A stretch of 64,000 nt of DNA from Owenia fusiformis. Taxonomy: Eukaryota; Annelida; Polychaeta; Sabellida; Oweniidae. A program made the position numbers and the translations under genes. This document shows, in pieces, positions 20,096 through 21,033 of the stretch (position 1 is the stretch's first letter; each line of letters begins with the position of its first letter). The DNA is taken from NCBI GenBank assembly GCA_903813345.2, contig CAIIXF020000007.1, positions 28,445,564 to 28,509,563 on the forward strand, read 5' to 3'. The notes beneath the pieces were generated by a model. That model was not told the origin of the DNA. It saw nothing but the letters and a program-made list of their open reading frames with translations, and made no database searches.

Positions 20096-20210
20096 TAGGG
20101 TAGACTAAGAACACGGCCACCACAACTAGTGAAAGCACTAGGAGTATAACTAGAGCGGCTAAGCCTATTCCTTTCCAATTCCTCTCAGGAGGTTTTTCAC
20201 CTATGAGCTC
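20096..20210 (-). CDS. DPP6: Transmembrane exon a (alternative, proximal copy)
   Basis: A 115-nt exon, phase 0 in and phase 1 out, with a TATTTTTAG acceptor and GTAAGT donor. It encodes ELIGEKPPERNWKGIGLAAL followed by the rest of a leucine/valine-rich membrane helix ending LVYP. The KPPERNWKGI juxtamembrane stretch is nearly the [10 protein letters not shown] of vertebrate DPP6/DPP10, after which the helix enters the membrane in type II orientation. A second exon of the same length and phase lies 708 bases upstream in the transcript (20919-21033), with about 22 of 38 residues identical by hand count. This copy keeps the double proline; the other copy's helix looks closer to vertebrate DPP6. 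In DPP6/DPP10 this region contacts the Kv4 voltage sensor, so exon choice could tune channel pairing (inference). Confidence 0.93.
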
Positions 20211-20918
20211 CTAAAAATACAACATTGAAAAGTGGTTGGACATGAGTCGACTCCACTGTTGAGGTATTATATAGGGGCATGGATGCATATCAAGCGGAGA
20301 CAGCTAACACTGAGTACAGTACACCGCTTATATACCACAGGATACCATCATACAAGGGTCACATGTCAATCAGTCAGTTACCAAGACAATACTCAGCCAG
20401 TGGGAGGAGCCTAGGGCTGTCGTCATGTAGCAACGTGTGTATCTATATTCGGCTTTATTTGTCAAAGGATAATAACCATATGAGCGAATATTTCAATTTC
20501 ATTTTTACAAAAGGTACATAAGTAGTATACCTGGCATAGATTTAATGGTTGTCAAAAAGAATAAAACCTTCAATCAGTGGTCTCCACAGGATTTTTAGGA
20601 GGTGCAGAATTTACATTTTCACAAGTCTGACAAAAGTCAGCCAAAATGTCGCCATTTTTCTTGAATTTTTCATTTTCAAACAGATCTTATTTTACAAATC
20701 CCAAATGGATGCAGAGCCAATGTGACCAATGCTGTAGAGATCACTGGTAAGAATAAAGACTGTAGAAGCAAGAGTTTTGACGACCACTATATCTATCAAA
20801 AATACAGGTAGTAGCTACATAAGCAGATCCGATTCGACCTTGCTACATTCAAACCCCTAGCCCCCTCCCCAAGGGGTACCCAGATACCATTTTGGAGATG
20901 CACTCTGTTCGTACTTAC
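20211..20918. other. Spacer between the two transmembrane exons (708 bases)
   Basis: Contains the MITE 20575-20745. Both flanking exons have ordinary acceptors with pyrimidine tracts. The spacer is long enough to be spliced, so exclusivity cannot come from steric hindrance and would need frame control or regulated splicing. Confidence 0.8.
20575..20745. mobile_element. MITE, CAGTGATCTCC family, between the duplicated exons
   Basis: The left end is CAGTGGTCTCC and the right end is AGAGATCACTG. The interior shares GGAGGTGCA.AATT...CATTTTCACAA and TTTTTCATTTTCAA blocks with copies at 50848-51055, 27128-27323 and 45419-45642. Confidence 0.65.
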
Positions 20919-21033
20919 GAGGTGTTACTAAGATAACAGCTGTTACAATGAGGGCACACACGATCAATATAACAAGAAGGGCGATCCCGATACCTCGCCA
21001 GTTTCTTGTTGATGATGTGCTTCCGACCAATTC
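20919..21033 (-). CDS. DPP6: Transmembrane exon b (alternative, distal copy)
   Basis: A 115-nt exon, phase 0 in and phase 1 out, with a CATTTTCTAG acceptor and GTAAGT donor. It encodes [20 protein letters not shown] followed by [10 protein letters not shown] and TAVILVTP. It is a diverged duplicate of exon a (20096-20210), equal in length with the same splice phases. Adding both exons to one transcript would give 230 nt and put the next exon (14939-15034) out of frame, so the pair should be mutually exclusive. The ALLVIL.VC.LIVT.VIL.TP helix resembles vertebrate DPP6 more than exon a does. The proline pair before RNW is replaced by STSST, giving a Ser/Thr-rich juxtamembrane segment that could be phosphorylated (inference). 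Both exons have intact frames and splice sites, so neither looks like a decayed copy. Confidence 0.92.

Follow-up and report, generated by a model that had tools for sequence, protein, structure and literature searches.

A tandem pair of candidate mutually exclusive membrane exons in a DPP10-type gene of the annelid Owenia fusiformis

The gene and its candidate first exons

The window analysed here is a stretch of 64,000 nucleotides from the genome of Owenia fusiformis, whose minus strand carries part of a DPP10-type gene with two similar neighbouring exons, A and B, for its membrane segment. The features of the gene are listed below in order of transcription, numbered from the first letter of the window unless a contig is named.

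32395-32360, minus strand: candidate first exon F1 (MANKGGEEAEPE), phase 0, weak donor
26160-26038, minus strand: candidate first exon F2 (MDISSIIFPTCLILLMFFLLYGRSMFSSCRCKQKMKKDGDY), phase 0, weak
25121-25056, minus strand: candidate first exon F3 (MEEGSENRSLASYGVNGKKSSK), in phase 0 and with a strong donor; of the three candidates the most credible
21033-20919, minus strand: exon A, upstream copy, 115 nt (38 codons and 1 nt), phase 0 to 1
20918-20211, minus strand: A-B intron, 708 nt, with a dispersed repeat at about 20679-20574
20210-20096, minus strand: exon B, downstream copy (ELIGEKPPERNWKGIGLAALVILLVLSLVVVAVFLVYP and 1 nt), 115 nt, phase 0 to 1
15034-14939, minus strand: exon 3, common, completes the Arg codon begun in A or B
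8733-8636, minus strand: exon 4, common, similar to DPP6
4604-4530, minus strand: exon 5, common, from the gene model
1557-1505, minus strand: exon 6, common, from the gene model
972-900, minus strand: exon 7, common, from the gene model
C7:28443271-28427304: exons 8-24 (17 exons), beyond the window, from tblastn and reading of splice sites

The downstream exons were sought by tblastn in 80 kb of adjoining genome and their borders were set by splice sites. An open frame with AG and GT at the exon borders runs over 23 exons, namely A or B and then exons 3-24, and ends in a stop at C7:28427304. Started with F3, the gene model comprises 808 aa whether A or B is used. The least certain exon of the model is exon 12 (51 nt, NLDLKADGTDGTGWIDI), the longer of two candidates that share a donor and passed a filter requiring a Trp and matching phases.

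The 5' end is less secure. The preliminary description had spoken of first exons, and although three phase-0 candidates do lie upstream of the pair, open reading frames comparable with F1 and F2 are not much commoner on the minus than on the plus strand. Those with a donor at least as good as that of F1 number 63 on the minus and 44 on the plus strand, and for F2 the figures are 5 and 3; over rising donor thresholds the counts of frames with a phase-0 donor (minus/plus) were 63/44, 24/10, 5/3, 2/1 and 1/0. The excess is modest and singles out no candidate except perhaps F3; neither F1 nor F2 was accepted as proven. F2, which is little above chance as an open frame, would begin with a hydrophobic, Cys-containing N terminus (ISSIIFPTCLILLMFFLLYG) followed by basic residues; if real, it would place a second membrane segment ahead of that of A or B. 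A peptide of the MNQTA-type exon 1a was also used as a query, and no match to it was among those listed (60, possibly all of them belonging to the first query). Exons A and B begin in phase 0 at ELxG, which is compatible with a plan of alternative first exons followed by a membrane exon. Several first exons and promoters, joined to a common core of exons 2-26, are described for vertebrate DPP6 and DPP10 (PMC3973911).

Scans of the window with Rfam and for tRNA genes gave no matches. Many extended tandem-repeat arrays, whose units measure 19 to about 160 nt or multiples thereof, lie in the introns and flanks.

4776-6172: tandem-repeat array
6581-6954: tandem-repeat array
12180-12793: tandem-repeat array
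31088-31657: tandem-repeat array
35507-36571: tandem-repeat array
40963-41477: tandem-repeat array
59888-60303: tandem-repeat array

The duplicated membrane exons

Exons A and B are duplicated and frame-locked, and each encodes the whole juxtamembrane segment together with the full helix. The preliminary description had claimed two exons of 115 nt, entering in phase 0 and leaving in phase 1, 708 nt apart, and both were confirmed in place on the minus strand. Its claim of intact splice sites also stood, the acceptors ending in AG (TTTTCTAG and ATTTTTAG) and both donors reading GTAAGT, as did its estimate of about 22 identical residues out of 38, which is the number counted. Either copy gives an arginine at the junction with exon 3, as had been stated, with the codon CGA via A and AGA via B. 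The predicted break of frame when both copies are joined was likewise found, a stop following within a few codons of the junction, and skipping both has the same outcome. Judged as tandem exons, A and B are homologous neighbours in one gene, share the same phase and conform to the splice-site consensus. Because the frame allows one copy, and not both or none, mutual exclusion is the best-fitting reading, and exclusion in the RNA is probable.

The two copies are identical at 22 of 38 residues and 64 of 115 nucleotides. Against the corresponding segment of human DPP6 (PDB 7ukg) A is identical at 27 of 38 residues and B at 22. When this DPP6 segment was compared with the 64-kb window by tblastn, A was found with an E-value of 2e-15 and B with 3e-13, the following match having 0.055. 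With A, B or DPP6 as the query the weaker copy always had an E-value of at most 1.3e-11, and the match after it 0.076, 2.0 and 0.055 respectively. A phmmer search of the PDB with B gave DPP6 as the top match (E 1.3e-8). The A peptide found only two matches in the whole genome (498 Mb, 525 contigs), A itself at 4.1e-16 and B at 8.4e-7, and no further copy of the membrane exon came up, either in the window by tblastn or in the 498-Mb genome with the A peptide. No relatives were found at an E-value of 1e-3 in one viral and one prokaryotic contig collection.

Each copy has DPP6 residues that are absent from the other. A shares with DPP6 a Cys and a Thr in the middle of the helix, where B has Leu and Val, whereas B shares with it PP, Lys and Ser at positions where A deviates. 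B also has a Phe and a Tyr near the outer end of the helix. Differences between A and B fall on codon positions 1, 2 and 3 in 17, 8 and 25 cases, each of 38; pN is 0.32 and pS 0.77, the latter saturated and beyond correction. In 20,000 neutral simulations, started from A and run to the observed number of nucleotide differences, the 22 identical residues were never kept (mean 11, maximum 20) and the frame stayed open in 14%, values that are a rough guide since A was mutated directly and with an AT-rich bias. The picture suggested by these comparisons is of an old duplication held under constraint at the protein level.

These observations bear on two explanations in which no choice between working exons is made by splicing. 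B (or A) might be a relic: a duplicate of old date that splicing now passes over, or includes only at trace level as a decoy or poison exon. Joint inclusion of A and B would indeed act as a poison exon, since the frame breaks, and B is the copy less like DPP6; yet B has acquired no stop and lost no splice site although synonymous sites are saturated, the protein identity lies far over the neutral expectation, and B keeps the PP, Lys and Ser of DPP6 just where A departs from them. A relic is on this evidence unlikely, and one copy may have died very recently. Alternative promoters could instead account for the pair if starts between A and B gave B only and upstream starts A only. DPP6 and DPP10 genes are described as having several first exons and promoters (PMC3973911), and TATATAAG was spotted by eye in the A-B intron at about 20334-20327. 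Against this, the intron holds a single ATG followed by a phase-0 donor scoring at least -2 (20426-20382, 15 codons), and that donor is poor (1.0); exon B has no in-frame ATG, and the TAG of its own acceptor stands in frame ahead of it, and the candidate first exons all lie upstream of both copies. A promoter inside the A-B intron was rejected because no convincing first exon is present there, and the explanation as a whole is very improbable. The choice of a single copy by splicing is preferred to both.

The frame penalty is the only device for exclusion that follows from the sequence. The intron of 708 nt is long enough for splicing, so nothing physical forbids the joining of A to B. A distant branch point, as in OGDH, is unlikely, as the AG-free stretch before B is just 38 nt. 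The exclusion of exon 17 in Dscam is said, in the title of one paper, to combine steric hindrance with RNA structure. RNA pairing was examined here between three blocks (5' of A, the A-B intron and 3' of B) in six pairings, with 50-nt windows and 60 shuffles. Two of the six pairings were stronger than all 60 shuffles; the other four, including that between the flanks, were at chance level (11, 15, 29 and 18 of 60 shuffles as low). One of the two strong pairings lies within the intron.

20889-20376, minus strand: predicted long stem within the A-B intron, with its arms at about 20889-20830 and 20444-20376 and its start about 29 nt from donor A

In 50-nt windows this stem reached -45.0 kcal/mol (0 of 60 shuffles as low, shuffle mean -29.6), and with the chosen arms -54.0 kcal/mol. 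Folded as a whole, the intron shows only modest stability (z -1.87, with none of 20 shuffles as low). A short folded path from donor A to the branch region in the predicted fold was set aside, since the ends of folded RNAs usually lie near each other.

The second strong pairing, 3' of B, was discarded. One 13-mer is present in three copies close to B, one of them inverted, and a 16-mer containing one of these (GGTCACATTTGCTCTG) has 239 exact copies in the genome, where its reversed control has none, which marks it as a dispersed repeat. Docking and selector pairing around B was for that reason ruled out. The 16-mer belongs to an inverted-repeat element about 150 nt long that lies downstream of B (19827-19973) and has arms of 35 nt that are 83% complementary; a partial copy is present in the A-B intron at 20712-20728, and the family is dispersed and MITE-like. 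The intron segment 20679-20574 is also a dispersed repeat, with at least 40 further places in the genome at 70-81% identity (40 of 305 candidates scored) and with copies at 50958-50848 and 27214-27323 of the window.

Protein type, gene number and the Kv4 channel

Pfam found DPPIV_N (309 bits) and Peptidase_S9 (194 bits) in the full model, both above the cut-off. The best matches of the full model in the PDB were DPP4 (E 5.8e-162), DPP6 (1.2e-153), FAP (4.8e-147) and DPP10 (6.5e-144, ectodomain only). Identity by BLASTP was 37.6% with DPP4, 35.9% with DPP10 and 33.0% with the PDB sequence of DPP6. The motifs SYGG, HGTADDNVHF, DKNH and DWVYEEE align with those of DPP4 (PDB 5lls), and GW-SYGG spans exons 19 and 20, so that the catalytic serine is present. 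The residues at the aligned positions we take to have the roles of the Ser, Asp and His triad and of the Glu-Glu motif. The DPP4-type triad is apparently intact and the ectodomain probably an active peptidase. The gene had been described as DPP6/DPP10-like, and this holds for the membrane segment, which is of the DPP6/10 type in both copies, but not for the ectodomain, which is DPP4-like with its triad. With the triad apparently intact the gene is not of the inactive vertebrate DPP6/10 type but rather of the kind of fly DPP10, and part of the constraint on it may be unrelated to Kv4.

A search of the whole genome with the PF00930 profile gave four matches, all within the DPP10-type gene. PF00326 gave 11, two in this gene and nine places elsewhere, five of which (L015-L019) were compared with the DPP set. 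L016 is DPP8/9-like in appearance, the similarity of L015 and L018 is more remote, and for L017 and L019 no match to the DPP set was obtained at an E-value of 0.01. A 125-residue catalytic query found the DPP10-type gene three times and besides it only L016, weakly. A second gene of the DPP4/6/10 type was thus not found with PF00930, with PF00326 (five of the nine other places compared) or with the catalytic query. Because exons were matched one at a time in these searches, a diverged paralogue with small exons could escape; within this sensitivity the genome appears to hold a single DPP4/6/10-type gene, in which the channel-type helix and the enzyme are combined.

On C5 the same genome has a Kv4/Shal gene, whose product is 83% identical to human Kv4.2 in a stretch of 188 residues between S1 and the pore. 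By cryo-EM the residues of Kv4.2 that face DPP6 are T182, V186, V190, F194, A228, C231 and A235 (PMC8566240). Six of these seven are identical in the Owenia channel, A228 being replaced by Val, which taken alone is weak evidence since this part of Kv4 is conserved in any case (279 of 371 residues). The docking face is kept, which fits a Kv4 complex without proving one, and a role of the helix exchange in relation to Kv4 gains circumstantial support from this and from the presence of the channel gene. In the cryo-EM study of Kise et al. the DPP6 side chains are described as hard to assign (PMC8566240), and for this reason the differences between A and B are not placeable on the contact face.

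The Kv4 gene has tandem exons of its own, covering the end of the filter and S6, at C5:18145557-18145719 and C5:18145770-18145932, 163 nt each and 50 nt apart. They are identical at 48 of 54 residues, with differences at codon positions 1, 2 and 3 of 7, 1 and 30, and each matches human Kv4.2 at 46 of 54. The short intron and the frame suggest that this pair is strictly mutually exclusive and would affect the gate segment of the channel. No account of such Kv4 S6 exon pairs was found in the open-licence literature.

Interpretation and comparison with known systems

The best explanation is that the second coding exon of a DPP10-type gene was duplicated in tandem long ago and that A and B are spliced singly, altering the helix that faces Kv4; we put its probability at roughly 0.7. 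The mRNA would consist of one first exon ending in phase 0, A or B, and the common exons 3-24. Inclusion of both copies or of neither would shift the frame and, judging from the frame, lead to nonsense-mediated decay. The two products would have the same DPP4-like, probably active ectodomain and would be told apart only by 16 of the 38 residues that span the membrane or adjoin it. Judged by fly DPP10 and mammalian DPP6/10, in which this segment binds the voltage sensor of Kv4, the A form may be the canonical Kv4 binder; the B form may differ in the strength or effect of its contact with Kv4, or in dimerisation or sorting, with the enzyme unchanged. The protein is, from its sequence, a probable dual-function molecule, a peptidase and a Kv4 subunit with an exchangeable channel-facing helix.

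The function of the exchange is the more doubtful part. Given that both exons are used, a Kv4-related function, argued by analogy, stands a little short of even odds. Both forms might be made and yet differ in the sorting, dimerisation or shedding of the peptidase rather than in Kv4. The triad and the DPP4-like motifs kept in the ectodomain agree with this, and the literature treats the membrane variants of Dscam and N-cadherin with regard to targeting and the strength of adhesion (PMC2655722). On the other side, the DPP6/10-type segment is reported to bind Kv4 in fly and mammals, human DPP4 did not co-precipitate Kv4.3 (PMC4873792), and six of the seven Kv4 contact residues are kept, and such a difference is a serious but less likely alternative. 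The membrane forms of N-cadherin are reported to give graded homophilic adhesion in cells, and their localisation in vivo was not different (PMC2655722), which was counted against a functional difference between A and B. A bolder extension of the Kv4-facing reading, with a low probability, is that the exon swap does the work of separate vertebrate genes: A would make a channel-bound Kv4 subunit and B mainly a free surface peptidase, or a subunit with a different effect on gating, and with the S6 exons of Kv4 probably exclusive as well both partners would be tuned by exon choice.

If both exons are used, the pair would amount to a natural experiment with the very helix by which DPP6/10 proteins are coupled to the voltage sensor of Kv4. 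Forms with 16 differences in 38 residues and a common ectodomain could help to assign the residues for binding and gating, which is hard for cryo-EM, and splicing would separate the channel and enzyme roles of a dual-function protein. The tandem S6 exons of Kv4 in the same genome add to the interest of the pair.

The closest likeness is to the DPP10 of Drosophila (NP_609051), in which a DPP6/10-type membrane segment also stands on a DPP4-like ectodomain with a catalytic serine, and Kv4/Shal is present in the same animal. According to its authors fly DPP10 binds rat Kv4.3 and shifts the gating of this channel, and it also cleaves Gly-Pro-MCA; a chimera of the DPP10 membrane segment with the DPP4 ectodomain is cited there as regulating Kv4.3 (PMC4873792). 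It differs in that the available text of that paper does not mention an alternative membrane exon ('exon' and 'isoform' do not appear in it and 'splic' appears only in the references). In Tribolium two DPP10s are reported to have Gly at the position of the catalytic serine and DPP10.3 to have Ser (PMC9820350). Vertebrate DPP6 and DPP10 are alike in having a single exon 3' of the alternative first exons that carries the membrane segment, but differ in lacking the catalytic serine and in their common core of exons 2-26 (PMC3973911). Searches of the open-licence literature turned up no description of alternative membrane exons for any DPP4/6/10 gene, which is weak evidence of absence.

Exchangeable membrane exons in general are already known. 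Exon 17 of Dscam1 and exon 18 of arthropod N-cadherin are described as exchanged by exclusive splicing (PMC8042237, PMC2655722), and like A and B each forms a mutually exclusive pair that swaps a membrane-spanning segment. They differ in that they belong to adhesion molecules, not to a channel subunit or peptidase, and in that the use of the N-cadherin exons is known from cDNA and RT-PCR (PMC2655722), whereas for the DPP10-type pair it is predicted from genomic sequence. A further likeness is to the tandem exon substitutions of human genes, e.g. OGDH exons 4a and 4b, in which homologous tandem exons are used one at a time (PMC9741552, PMC7969005). DPP6, DPP10 and KCND do not appear in the main text of PMC9741552, and the distant-branch-point device described for OGDH (PMC7969005) is not seen at A and B. 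Such substitutions are reported to be mostly ancient and enriched among ion channels and membrane proteins (PMC9741552, PMC7969005).
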